From Alphaproteobacteria bacterium (lineage in GTDB: Bacteria; Pseudomonadota; Alphaproteobacteria; UBA6615): 64,000 nt of DNA. Every line of letters starts with the position of its first letter. Positions within the stretch are counted from its first letter, which is position 1. Shown in pieces: positions 27,393-33,836 of the stretch. The stretch covers positions 558,001 to 622,000 of the forward strand of contig JBDXCV010000003.1 in the NCBI GenBank assembly GCA_039980135.1. The letters are read 5' to 3'. The position numbers and the translations under genes are program-made. The notes under the pieces are model-generated. The model saw nothing but the letters and a program-made list of their open reading frames with translations. It had not been told where the DNA came from and searched no databases.

Positions 27393-28049
27393 TCAGTCTT
27401 CCTCACGCATCGTGTAGGTGAGCAGGGTGGTGTCGGTCACGAATTCGATGTCGGCGCGTGCATCCCCCGTGTCGGCATAGATGAAGTCCCATACCCCCAG
27501 ACTCTCCCCGCTGACCTTTATTTCGCCATCCTGCACCAACGCGGCCAGGAAGACCGGGCTGTGGGTCGCGCCGGCGGGAAACCGCATCGTCTCGACCAGC
27601 AAGCGGCCGGCGCCATGATCGACCTGTGTTTTCATTTTGCTTCCGTCCGGTCCGTCCACCCATGGCAGGTCGACATGCTGGATCAGTCGGTAGTGTTTTT
27701 CGGACGACAGTTCCTCGACCTCGGAATGGAAAAAACTACCCTGGAAGGCCGAAATGAGGTTGCAGCCGAGCGGATAGTGCAGCGGGCCGTGCGGTTCGTT
27801 GCTCGGGCCGATGACCACATCGAGCGGGCCGAGCGTGAGGCCATCGACAATCGCCGTGTTCTTCAACACAGTCGTCGCGTGAGTCCCGGCATGGACGTGA
27901 CGCGGCTCGGTCGATCCGAACGGATAGTCGATCAGCCTGATGACCAGCTCCGTTTCGTCGTTGGCATAGTAAAGCCCGGCCTTGCTCAACCAGTTATCGA
28001 CATTCTTCCTGTCTTCCCAGGGGATGCTATCCAATTTGACAATATTCAT
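27393..28049 (-). CDS. Cupin-fold protein (paralogue of 18020-18679)
   Basis: A 218-residue protein closely related along its whole length to the plus-strand cupin at 18020. Shared blocks include DYPFGSTEPRHVHAG, DVVIGPSNEPHGPLHYP and SLGVWDFIYAD. AGGAGCGACGT precedes ATG 28049, and the start overlaps the CMD stop as ATGA, so translation is coupled to that redox protein. Function is unknown beyond a probable metal-binding cupin fold; the His-rich EPRHVHAGTHATTV segment may provide ligands. Confidence 0.83.
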   Translation of the reverse strand: MNIVKLDSIPWEDRKNVDNWLSKAGLYYANDETELVIRLIDYPFGSTEPRHVHAGTHATTVLKNTAIVDGLTLGPLDVVIGPSNEPHGPLHYPLGCNLISAFQGSFFHSEVEELSSEKHYRLIQHVDLPWVDGPDGSKMKTQVDHGAGRLLVETMRFPAGATHSPVFLAALVQDGEIKVSGESLGVWDFIYADTGDARADIEFVTDTTLLTYTMREED

Positions 28050-28771
28050 ACGTCGCTCCTCATGTTTGCGTGTTGCCTGGTGCCGTCGGTTTGCGCCGCG
28101 GCAGGTTGTATTGAGTCCCGGTCAGCCTGACCGGATGGGGAAAACCGGCCCGCGAACGCTTCGACATCGTCGATCGACAGCGACGTGTCCTTCACGGCAT
28201 CCCATTGTTTCTTGTTGATTTCGAGAGGCTCCAATTCGGTCCAGAAGGAATCGTTGAGGCGATTGATCATGTTGAACATGGCCGACGCCACCGTGACCTC
28301 GACGATCTCCACGTCGCTACACAGGCGCTTCAGTTCGTCCCACAACGCCTTGTCGCGCCGGGATGTATTGAGCGTCACGGCCTCGGCCCAGGCGATGACG
28401 GCCTTTTCCTTGTCGGTGAACAGCGAACTTTCCTTGTAGGCGTCGCTGTCGAGCAGGGCGCACTCGTCGGGGATGATACCCAGTCCCTGGCCGAACACCG
28501 ACGTGTGCTCGGTGCAGTATTCGCAGGCGTTGGCCATCGAGGTCTTGATAATGGCCAGGCTCCGCAGACGCGGGTCTGATGTCGCACCCAGTGCGGGCTG
28601 ACGCACGGTCGCGACAAGGCCGAGAATCCAGCGTGCGAAGTAAGGATTATGTTGGGCGAGAATGCGCTGCAGGTTGGCCGTACGGCCCAGCAGCAGGGCA
28701 CAGGCATCGAGCACTTCCTTGCCAACGCCGGTGGCGTCGTCATCCGAAAGCATTTCCAGGCGCTTTGGCAT
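28046..28771 (-). CDS. AhpD/carboxymuconolactone decarboxylase-family protein (CxxC form)
   Basis: A 241-residue CMD-family protein with the AhpD-like redox motif C-E-Y-C-T-E-H in KTSMANACEYCTEHTSVFG. In AhpD the two cysteines and the following His reduce partner proteins or peroxides. The all-helical body (EKAVIAWAEAVTLN, VASAMFNMINRLNDSFW) matches the family. Start 28771 is marked by AGGAGCGCATT; the upstream extension is shadow. It is the cysteine counterpart of the UGA-containing gene at 31755-32414, which aligns to it with about one gap through the active site. Confidence 0.88.
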   Translation of the reverse strand: MPKRLEMLSDDDATGVGKEVLDACALLLGRTANLQRILAQHNPYFARWILGLVATVRQPALGATSDPRLRSLAIIKTSMANACEYCTEHTSVFGQGLGIIPDECALLDSDAYKESSLFTDKEKAVIAWAEAVTLNTSRRDKALWDELKRLCSDVEIVEVTVASAMFNMINRLNDSFWTELEPLEINKKQWDAVKDTSLSIDDVEAFAGRFSPSGQADRDSIQPAAAQTDGTRQHANMRSDV

Positions 28772-28843
28772 AATGCGCTCCTGTGATGACCTGCCGCCCG
28801 CGGGAATCACCCGCGAGCGGCGTGCCGACAACGTGAAAAAGGC

Positions 28844-30029: not shown

Positions 30030-31706
30030 TCAACCGATCGGCAGCGGCGCTTGCGCGTCGAGGTCGGTCACAACATCAATGATTGTCGGCCGCCGGGATG
30101 CGATTGCCTTCTCCAGTGCCGGCGCAAATTCGGACGGCTTTTCGACACGGAGACCCTGCGCCCCGAAAGTCTCGGCGACTTTCGAAATGTCCACGTCGGT
30201 CCAGACCCACAGCTCTTCGGCTTGTTCGGTCTGCTTGCCGCCATAGACCTGGTCATAGCCGAGCTTGGACTGGTTGCCGGAATGGTTGTTGTTCACGACG
30301 ATCACCGCCGGGATATTCCAGCGAACCATCGTTTCGATTTCGGCGACGTGATAGAGGAAGCCGCCGTCGCCCGTGAAACAGACGACGGGCCGGTCCGGAA
30401 CCCCGCACTGCGCCCCGATCGTCGCCGAGAAGGCCCACCCCAGGTGACCCGCACAGCGGACGTAGCTTTGCGTCGGCTTCTGCAAGTCGTACATGCCGCC
30501 CATCCACATCCCTGCATGGCCCGTATCGACGACGACGAATGCGTCATCGGGAAGGTGCTTGGACAGATCGCTGCAGATGCGCTCCGGCCGTGTCGGCGCC
30601 TCTTCGGAGGACAGGAGTTCGCTATACTGCTGATACCAGCCGCCCACATGCCCGCGTGCCTGGCCGATCCAGTTCTTGCGGCTCGCTGCGGTTCCGGCAT
30701 CGGCATGCTCCACCATGCGCTCGACCGTGACCTTGGCATCACCGAGAACCGCCGCGTCGAGCATGTAGTTGCGGCCCAGTGCTTCCGGGTCGATATCGAT
30801 CTGGATCGCCGGGGTGCCGAGCTTGGGAACCTTCCAGAAATGGGTGGTCATCCCCCCGGTCTCGGTGCCGATGAAGCAAACGAGATCGGCTTCCATGACG
30901 ACCTGGTTCGCGGAACCGCGCGAATAGGTGCCGACGACGCCCACGCTCAACGGATGGGTGCCGGGAATCGAATCCTTGCCGTTGAGTGATGTTGCGACCG
31001 GGATCTGCAACTTCTCCGCCAGTGCGACCACGGCCGGGCCGGCCTCGGACCAGCGCACACCGCCGCCCGCGACGATCACGGGCCGTTTCGCCGCCTGCAG
31101 AACCGCGACGGCCTTCTTTACGCTCGCATCGTCGGGTTCCGGCCGAAACGGCGGGACTTGCGAGAACTGGGCTTCGACGAGCGGCTCCATATCCGCTTCC
31201 TCGACGTCCATCTGTCCCTCGTTGCCGCGGAACTGAAGATGCACCGGTCCGGGCGTTCCCGACACCGCGACCCGGAAAGCCTGCCGCACCATGTCGGGGA
31301 ACCGTTCCACGGAATCGACCGTGGCGTTGAACTTTGTCACGGCATCGAACACCGGTACGTCGTCATTCTGCTGATAGACCTTGCGGAATTTCGTGGCGGG
31401 GTCTCGTCCGCCGGTCATGGCGATCACCGGCGAATGGGCCAGCCAGGCGTCTCTCAGACCGGCGGCGAGATTCAGCGCGCCGACCGTCTGCGCCATGCAG
31501 ATGCCTGGCCGACGCGACGCCCGTGCATAACCGTCCGCCATGTACGCCGCGGACTTTTCGCCGTGGGTACGCACCCGACTGATCGAGGTCGATGCTTCGA
31601 GCTCGACCATGGTTCTGCGCAAGATCGCGGGCACATGGAATATGTGGGTGACCCCGTAATCTTCGAGCATTCGCGCCATTGCCTGGGCGCCGGTCATCTT
31701 TGCCAT
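30030..31706 (-). CDS. Thiamine-diphosphate-dependent enzyme (acetolactate synthase/decarboxylase superfamily)
   Basis: A 558-residue enzyme with the three-domain ThDP layout: a PYR domain with catalytic E50 in RTHGEKSAAYMADGYAR, a central domain (RPVIVAGGGVRWSEAG), and a PP domain with the ThDP/Mg motif GDGGFLYH...VVNNN. The family includes acetolactate synthase, benzoylformate decarboxylase and sulfoacetaldehyde acetyltransferase; sequence alone does not choose between them. It would cleave or form a C-C bond next to a carbonyl. The position between a CMD-Sec gene and a bicupin ties it to the catabolic cluster. Confidence 0.92.
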   Translation of the reverse strand: MAKMTGAQAMARMLEDYGVTHIFHVPAILRRTMVELEASTSISRVRTHGEKSAAYMADGYARASRRPGICMAQTVGALNLAAGLRDAWLAHSPVIAMTGGRDPATKFRKVYQQNDDVPVFDAVTKFNATVDSVERFPDMVRQAFRVAVSGTPGPVHLQFRGNEGQMDVEEADMEPLVEAQFSQVPPFRPEPDDASVKKAVAVLQAAKRPVIVAGGGVRWSEAGPAVVALAEKLQIPVATSLNGKDSIPGTHPLSVGVVGTYSRGSANQVVMEADLVCFIGTETGGMTTHFWKVPKLGTPAIQIDIDPEALGRNYMLDAAVLGDAKVTVERMVEHADAGTAASRKNWIGQARGHVGGWYQQYSELLSSEEAPTRPERICSDLSKHLPDDAFVVVDTGHAGMWMGGMYDLQKPTQSYVRCAGHLGWAFSATIGAQCGVPDRPVVCFTGDGGFLYHVAEIETMVRWNIPAVIVVNNNHSGNQSKLGYDQVYGGKQTEQAEELWVWTDVDISKVAETFGAQGLRVEKPSEFAPALEKAIASRRPTIIDVVTDLDAQAPLPIG

Positions 31707-31754: not shown

Positions 31755-32414
31755 CTAGGACTTCGAGGTCGTGCCGCCTTCTTCTTCATGGTTCCACCAG
31801 CAGTCGCGCATATAGGCGACATAGTCGGCAGGATCGATCTTCACCGACTTGGTGAACTTCTCCATCACCGGCGCGTCCTCGATATCGATCTGCAGGCTGT
31901 CGGTGAACCGGTTCCAGAAATTGAAGAATCCCGAAATCATCGTGATCTCCACAATCTGCGCGGAATTGAAATGTTCCTTCAGTTCCGGCATCGCCTTCGG
32001 GTTCTGGCCGAAATACGTCTTCTCGGTCAGCACCTCGGCCCACTTGATCGCCGCCTTTTCAGCCGGCGTAAAATGATCGGATGACTGGAAGTCCCCTTCG
32101 AGCGCCTCAACCATAGAATCTTCAAAACCCAACCCCCGACCGAGCGTTACGTTGTGACTGATTCAATGGTTGCAGCCGTTCAGCATGGACGTCTTGAGGA
32201 TGATCAGTGCCTTGAGACGAACGGGCAGATTCTCGGTGATTTCCTCGCGCAACAGCGGCACGTTGAAACCGAAAACAGCCTGCGCCAGCTTCGGCGAATG
32301 GGCCGCGACACGGATGGCGTTCGCCACCCGCCCGTACAAGACCCGGTTGTGCTTGAACAGACGTGCCACGGGGCCCGTGGCTTCCTCGTCCGTTATGTAT
32401 GGCAGTTGAGCCAT
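31755..32414 (-). CDS. AhpD/CMD-family selenoprotein (CxxU), read through in-frame TGA
   Basis: One open frame of 219 residues if the TGA at 32163-32165 is read as selenocysteine 84. Before it the frame reads IILKTSMLNGCNH; after it, ISHNVTLGRGLGFEDSM and 120 more residues to a normal stop. The result, C81-N-H-U84-x-x-H87, is the AhpD redox motif with Sec in place of the second Cys. The paralogue at 28046 has CEYCTEH at the same place. AAGGAGGAG lies before the ATG. A hairpin immediately 3' of the TGA fits a bacterial SECIS. AhpD-like CxxU selenoproteins are a known class. Without read-through the gene would give only an 83-residue fragment lacking the active site. Confidence 0.88.
32122..32157 (-). 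promoter_or_regulatory. Candidate bacterial SECIS element
   Basis: On the minus strand, 32157-32142 pairs with 32137-32122: 16 stacked positions, 13 paired and 3 single mismatches. The apical loop is GGTC (32141-32138). The loop begins 21 nt after the TGA. In E. coli fdhF the SECIS loop also carries GGUC at a similar distance. A G at the loop start and this spacing fit known bacterial SECIS rules. Confidence 0.8.
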
Positions 32415-32546: not shown

Positions 32547-33836
32547 TCAGAGCTGAGCCGGCAGCCAGAGTGCCAGTGCCGGGAAGAAAATCAGCAATAT
32601 GAGACGAAGAATGTCGGAAGCGAAAAACGGCATGATTCCGGCGAAGATGGTCGACAGTTCGACATCCTTGAGCATGGCTTTCATGACGAACACGTTGATG
32701 CCGACCGGCGGCGTAATCAGGCTGATTTCCGTCGCCACCACAAGGAAGATCCCGAACCAGATAAGGTCGATTCCCATGGCGCTCACGATCGGCACGAAGA
32801 TTGGCACCACCAGGAGAATCATCGCCAGTCCCTCAACGAACATGCCCAGGACAATGAGAATTCCGAGAATGACGAATATTGCAAACGTCGGGCTCGCGTC
32901 AAAGCTGGTCACAAAATCCGTGATGACGAAGCTCACGCCGGACAGCTGAATGAACTGATTGAGCGCCAGCGCACCGAAGATCACGGTAAACAACATACCC
33001 GTGGTCTTTCCCGCGTCGTAGAGCGACAGGAACAGGCTGTGCCATGACATCCGCCGCCGTCCGACCGCGAACAAAAGCGCGCCCGAGGCCCCCATCGCGC
33101 CAGCTTCGGTCGGGGTAAAGACCCCGAACATGATTCCGAACATGATCATCAGGAACAGGGCGACCACACCCCAGACCCGCCCGAGCGTGCGTATCCGATA
33201 GCGCCAGCTGCTGCGTTCACCTGCCGGACCGCTATCGGGGCGAAACGCCACGATGAGCTTGATCACGCCGATATAGAGAATAACGGTCAGGATGCCAGGC
33301 ACGATGCCCGCGACGAACAGCTGGCCAACATCAGATTCGGTCAGCAGGCCGTAGACGATCAGGGCATTGCTCGGGGGAATAAGAATTCCCAGTGTACCGC
33401 CTGCCGCGATCGTGCCGGCCGCCAGACTGTCCGAGTAATTGTAGCGGCGCATCGAAGGCAGCGCGACTTTGGCCATGGTGACAACCGTCGCCACCGAATT
33501 GCCCGAAACCGCCGCAAACCCTCCGCTGGCCGCGACTGTCGACATGGCCAGGCCGCCCCTCAGATGTCCGAGCCACGAATATGCCGCGTCATACAGGTCG
33601 TCTGATAAACGCGCCTGGGATACGAACGCTCCCATGAGCAGGAACAGCGGCAGGACCACGAAACCCGGTGCAATAGCGATGTCGAAAATGACAGTACCGA
33701 TGCCGTACAGGGCGATGTCCATGCCACGCACGGTCGCCGTGCCGAAAAAGCCGACGAGCAGCATGGAGAAACCCAGTGGCACACGGGCCAGCAACAGCAG
33801 CAGCAGCGCTGCCATCCCAATCGAAACTTCAAACAT
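32547..33836 (-). CDS. dctM: TRAP transporter large permease subunit
   Basis: A 429-residue membrane protein with about a dozen helices, the DctM large subunit that couples solute uptake to the sodium or proton gradient. FEVSIGMAALLLLLLARVPL at the start and the internal AVSGNSVATVVTMAKVALPS and AGTIAAGGTLGILIPPSNAL segments are hallmarks. It overlaps dctQ by 8 bp. Gene order is dctP-dctQ-dctM-CMD(Sec) on the minus strand, so it should import the cluster's substrate, probably a carboxylate. Confidence 0.95.
   Translation of the reverse strand: MFEVSIGMAALLLLLLARVPLGFSMLLVGFFGTATVRGMDIALYGIGTVIFDIAIAPGFVVLPLFLLMGAFVSQARLSDDLYDAAYSWLGHLRGGLAMSTVAASGGFAAVSGNSVATVVTMAKVALPSMRRYNYSDSLAAGTIAAGGTLGILIPPSNALIVYGLLTESDVGQLFVAGIVPGILTVILYIGVIKLIVAFRPDSGPAGERSSWRYRIRTLGRVWGVVALFLMIMFGIMFGVFTPTEAGAMGASGALLFAVGRRRMSWHSLFLSLYDAGKTTGMLFTVIFGALALNQFIQLSGVSFVITDFVTSFDASPTFAIFVILGILIVLGMFVEGLAMILLVVPIFVPIVSAMGIDLIWFGIFLVVATEISLITPPVGINVFVMKAMLKDVELSTIFAGIMPFFASDILRLILLIFFPALALWLPAQL

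Follow-up and report, generated by a model that had tools for sequence, protein, structure and literature searches.

Within the 64,000-nt stretch of DNA analysed here (the window), a gene of the AhpD/CMD family is interrupted by a single in-frame UGA that is followed by a hairpin. On comparative sequence evidence we are highly confident that this hairpin is a bacterial SECIS element and that the UGA is read as selenocysteine by a predicted SelB-dependent insertion. Among relatives of the gene the hairpin is confined to those that likewise carry the UGA, and the cell therefore very probably reads this codon as selenocysteine. The gene is a well-supported new addition to the already known AhpD-like CxxU selenoproteins.

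Table 1. Positions in the window of the predicted selenoprotein gene, its UGA, the parts of its hairpin and the adjoining genes.
Feature	Positions	Strand	Evidence or remark
AhpD/CMD-family gene for a predicted selenoprotein, 219 aa with U84 (NGCNHUISHN)	31755..32414	-	open through the TGA; homology, selection, fold
In-frame UGA, second position of CxxU, predicted selenocysteine	32163..32165	-	aligned with TGA or Cys of homologues
Predicted SECIS hairpin, 13 pairs over 16 facing positions	32122..32157	-	fold and homologue comparison
Conserved core, 7-position stem around the loop (6 paired here, one G-G mismatch)	32131..32148	-	alignments; model R1, 57.4 bits
GGUC apical tetraloop, 21 nt past the UGA	32138..32141	-	GGTC in 19/21 and GGCC in 2/21 TGA rows
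Extended lower stem of the window sequence, draws in the UGA	32100..32181	-	RNAfold; nearest relative L046 in part, most other relatives without it
Thiamine-pyrophosphate enzyme gene, next downstream	30030..31706	-	beside the selenoprotein gene also in L014, L046 and L047
TRAP transporter DctM gene, next upstream	32547..33836	-	neighbour also in L014

The reading frame and its protein

Apart from this one TGA, no in-frame stop occurs across the window copy of the gene. With the TGA translated as U the frame gives 219 residues, and the U stands where the second Cys of a CxxC motif would be (...KTSMLNGCNHUISHNVTLGRGLGF...). Standard gene calling cuts the gene at the UGA into frames of 83 and 125 aa, a split that would cost it its redox centre. 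In five comparisons pN/pS was 0.20-0.34 after the TGA vs 0.14-0.40 before it, which points to purifying selection on the frame on both sides of the codon.

The protein scores 35.6 bits against the Pfam CMD domain (cut-off 23), and no model of NCBIfam 20.0 takes it above its cut-off: TIGR01926 (peroxid_rel) gives 42.1 bits against 81.8, NF053654 gives 47.2 against 310 and NF041238 gives 18.8 against 175. Among 18 aligned homologues E58, C81, position 84 and H87 are invariant. The AlphaFold model (pLDDT 86.8) has the AhpD fold, with U84 near the start of helix 82-94, and its best Foldseek matches in the PDB are 6k40, 6ohi (the debrominase Bmp8) and 3c1l; these and a further AhpD structure, 2o4d, share the fold. 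At E up to 0.001 Foldseek gave 35 matches, 13-32% identical to the window protein, and none of them is named a selenoprotein there. A role as a thiol/selenol reductase or peroxidase would fit the model.

The gene is flanked by TRAP-transporter genes and the TPP-enzyme gene, an order conserved solely in the closest relatives. The cluster also includes a CMD-family Cys paralogue with the motif CEYC, on the minus strand at window positions 28046-28831. A plasmid search returned no match.

The hairpin and its expectation by chance

The preliminary description of this DNA had placed a 16-position stem with 13 pairs, topped by a GGUC loop 21 nt after the UGA, directly downstream of the codon, and had named a stable computed fold as one check. 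All coordinates that were tested proved correct, including the spacing of exactly 21 nt to the GGUC at 32141-32138. Read from the loop outward, the pairing of 32157-32142 with 32137-32122 runs as three pairs, a mismatch, four pairs, a mismatch, three pairs, a mismatch and three pairs. The computed fold likewise bore the description out: RNAfold gave -33.8 kcal/mol for the 82 nt from 32181 to 32100, with the GGUC hairpin as its apex and a z-score of -4.5 against 200 dinucleotide shuffles, none of which folded equally well. The 36-nt hairpin element alone reaches -12.4 kcal/mol. The G-G mismatch, the fourth pair from the loop, belongs to the window's own lineage, where the codon is Gly GGG, as against Ala GCG in most of the other TGA rows.

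The SECIS of E. coli fdhF is a hairpin right after the UGA with a GGUC-type apical loop that is recognised by SelB, and it carries a bulged U. The window hairpin differs from it in having a symmetric G-G mismatch, separated from the loop by three pairs, and it serves a different host gene. No match to the region was obtained in Rfam at E up to 10.

How readily such a structure arises by chance depends on how strictly it is defined. Of the window's 1,797 TGAs (any frame, both strands), the UGA of this gene is alone in being followed at +21 by GGTC on a stem with six or more of its seven positions paired; 0.13 such sites are expected in first-order Markov sequence. If the GGTC is allowed anywhere from +16 to +37, there are seven sites where 3.1 are expected, and if the loop on such a stem may be any four nucleotides with a G at the first or second place, the window has 312 sites. 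The published bSECIS limits are a loop of 3-9 nt, an upper stem of 4-16 bp, a G at loop position 1 or 2, a UGA-to-loop distance of 16-37 nt and an MFE of -7.5 kcal/mol or lower (PMC13188914), and the window hairpin lies within them (4-nt GGUC loop, 13/16 paired, 21 nt, -12.4 kcal/mol). In our own implementation these lax rules (about -7.5 kcal/mol or lower) took in all 21 TGA rows of the homologue comparison and also 9 of its 10 Cys rows; since they failed to separate the two, they were discarded as a test and replaced by an exact-position stem test. The low chance of occurrence argued in the preliminary description holds for the exact GGUC at +21 but not for the general bSECIS rules, which are too lax. 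Structures within such lax limits often arise by chance, and the hairpin by itself is weak, suggestive evidence; the homologues make the case convincing.

Conservation and covariation among homologues

Scanning the genome collection yielded 31 homologous loci. At the position of U84, 20 of them have TGA and 10 have TGC or TGT, while one (L043) is short of the site and was left out of the counts. GGTC on a stem with six or more of seven positions paired was found in 19 of the 21 TGA rows (window included) and in none of the 10 Cys rows (Fisher p 1.5e-6, a statistic that ignores shared ancestry). The two exceptions, L015 and L019, are Nitrospinota-type rows that group together in the tree; they have a GGCC loop without the full 7-pair stem, and their SECIS may be built differently. 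A wider tree of 62 proteins, from which nine loci repeating others or the same gene were dropped (L045, L047, L053, L054, L056, L068, L078, L079 and L080), had the hairpin in 34 of 36 U rows vs 0 of 26 C rows and needed three U/C changes. The hairpin is likewise present in paralogous U rows (L057, L075-type and L076-type), at a protein identity of 32-39%, although they join the tree on long branches, so that either inheritance or repeated origin would fit. Fifteen loci (L016, L018, L020, L022, L026, L028-L036 and L038) have, nearby on the other strand, another AhpD-like gene with a UGA (NxCxYUFAHNTSLGQAAGI) and a GGUC hairpin of its own.

These loci bear directly on the proposal that the TGA simply ends translation, or reflects a sequencing error or a pseudogene, and that the hairpin is a coincidence. 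The upstream frame alone would then encode a protein of 83 aa, and loosely defined hairpins after TGAs are indeed common in this GC-rich DNA, as the 312 in the window illustrate. The same TGA nevertheless recurs in 20 of the 31 homologous loci, which stem from separate assemblies and include Nitrospinota and SAR324 records, and the frame past it is conserved and free of further in-frame stops in the window copy, which makes the proposal highly improbable.

Covariation was assessed in two alignments. The first, A1, holds 20 of the 21 TGA rows, exceptions included, L035 having been dropped because it is identical to L034 over 60 nt. In A1, 93.6% of the cells are paired vs at most 47.9% for slid structures; its rows are less diverged, and both-sided change is confined to one pair (A-U to G-C, 2 cells). 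The second, A3, consists of 19 TGA rows hand-chosen for spread, with paralogues added and no row of the window's genome; L015, L017, L019 and further rows, near-copies for the most part, are absent from it, which biases its counts in favour of the structure. Here 94.7% of the cells are paired and both-sided change affects 4 of 7 pairs in 9 cells, against a mean of 1.2 cells in shuffled controls (0 of 500 as high) and at most 2 in slid ones. The same structure applied to the 10 Cys rows is 57.1% paired, no better than shuffled. Both comparative checks named in the preliminary description thus came out in its favour: the hairpin stands at the same place in nearly all TGA homologues of the narrower and the wider set, and compensatory changes do occur, with the hand-picking of the A3 rows to be kept in mind.

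The covariation also weighs on the notion that the hairpin merely follows from conservation of the protein in the LGRxLG segment and is no selected RNA element. The loop bases do form Gly-Arg or Gly-Gln codons kept by the family, and when codons were redrawn with the protein fixed the fold energy of the window lay close to the synonymous-codon mean (z -1.0), a measure that was uninformative as a test. Such a by-product should also appear in Cys rows with the same LGR residues, yet these lack the stem, and their loop Gly codon is GGC in three, GGA in three, GGG in three and GGT in one, whereas the TGA rows have GGT in 19 and GGC in 2. Redrawing the codons returned stem plus loop in 0.5% of cases for the window (P = 0.005) and mostly in less than 0.2% for rows with 7 of 7 pairs. 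With both-sided pair changes added to the absence of a GGUC stem from every Cys orthologue, we regard this explanation as having next to no probability.

Selenocysteine machinery and related selenoproteins

Profile searches of the window's genome recovered SelA (583 bits), SelB (467 bits) and SelD (284 bits), all above cut-off, with the SelB wing domain present. A tRNA-Sec scores 71.2 bits against a gathering threshold of 47 and has the anticodon TCA according to ARAGORN. The genes selA, selB, selD and tRNA-Sec are all on the window's contig, between 827,000 and 846,000. Across the family genomes SelB was found in 20 of 24 and tRNA-Sec in 18 of 24. Of the 13 genomes with a TGA row at E up to 1e-20, 12 have SelB, which is consistent but a weak test given that 20 of the 24 genomes already have it. 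The exception, G003, contains a UGA paralogue with a GGUC hairpin (L111, G003:C26:1875-2462), and its assembly, 87% complete, yielded no SelB and no tRNA-Sec. A formate-dehydrogenase-type selenoprotein was sought in the window's genome via PF04879, and none of the three matches had a stop.

Decoding of the UGA by a near-cognate tRNA, or its recoding as some other residue with the hairpin merely pausing the ribosome, has in its favour that a stable hairpin past a stop could in principle promote readthrough. It is very unlikely all the same: the genome encodes the full Sec machinery, the site is aligned with Cys, the usual partner of Sec, and the loop sequence is conserved as well as the stem, as expected of a SelB site. 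For insertion of selenocysteine, we infer the following course. At the UGA the ribosome would meet SelB with GTP and Sec-tRNA(Sec), held by the GGUC-topped hairpin just downstream. Delivery of selenocysteine by SelB would allow translation to continue to the full 219-residue AhpD-fold protein, in which C81 and U84 would form the CxxU redox pair close to the invariant E58 and H87. Most likely the selenol acts in place of the second Cys of the Cys relatives, in peroxidase, disulphide or other reductive chemistry.

The pattern is specific to this class of gene. Among 13,119 TGAs in any frame of the 432,097 bases of gathered loci, 49 distinct sites have GGTC at +21 on a stem with six or more of seven positions paired, and every one of them is the CxxU of an AhpD-like frame. 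As the loci were gathered largely with the window protein, such genes are enriched in them, and the absence of any other match is the informative part. A covariance model built without rows of the window's genome, R1, found three strong sites in that 3.76-Mb genome (58.1, 57.4 and 56.9 bits), although the model includes orthologues of all three; the next match, among the 150 of 1,722 first-look candidates that were scored, reached 15.5 bits. The three sites are C3:1000564, the window UGA (57.4 bits) and C9:87422, each the CxxU UGA of an AhpD-like frame; the two outside the window belong to L075 (C3:1000315-1000926) and L076 (C9:87221-87823), both with GGUC at +21. The hairpin thus offers a precise covarying signature that could correct split-gene annotations.

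It is conceivable, if somewhat doubtful, that a single, almost invariant SECIS code, with GGUC exactly 21 nt past the UGA on a 7-position stem, is common to this group of AhpD-like selenoproteins, across paralogues of only 32-39% identity both within one genome and in other phyla. If so, the SECIS would have been inherited, or repeatedly re-formed, together with the CxxU site, and SelB would have a strict loop preference; the class would also be sharp enough for RNA-only selenoprotein gene finding, unlike what the general bSECIS rules allow. The orthologues, some with UGA and some with Cys, some bearing the SECIS and some lacking it, form a natural series for studying the joint evolution of the RNA element and Sec/Cys exchange.

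AhpD-like and CMD-domain CxxU selenoproteins with a SECIS were described from the Sargasso Sea in 2005 (PMC1088965), the AhpD-like ones were counted in the GOS survey (PMC2398784), and both kinds (COG2128/TIGR01926 and PF02627) are tabled in a 2026 review (PMC13188914). The published AhpD-like selenoprotein resembles ours in its AhpD/CMD fold, in Sec at the second Cys of CxxU and in a UGA followed by a SECIS stem-loop. The window protein differs from the TIGR01926 group in falling well below that model's cut-off. It is like the CMD-domain selenoprotein (PF02627; PMC1088965, PMC13188914) in having CxxU and a Pfam CMD score above cut-off. The YciW-related (seleno)protein NF053654 and AhpD_rel_CFYUT NF041238, both NCBI-named (seleno)proteins, are of the same superfamily, and the window protein is below both cut-offs. 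A partial literature search (AhpD/CMD, selenoprotein, SECIS, CxxU) found no paper on the GGUC element of the window protein's subfamily. In three other CMD-family frames of the window's genome (L100, L101 and L103) the UGA stands at CSYU or CFYU and the GGUC element is absent; two of them resemble the CFYUT motif of NF041238.
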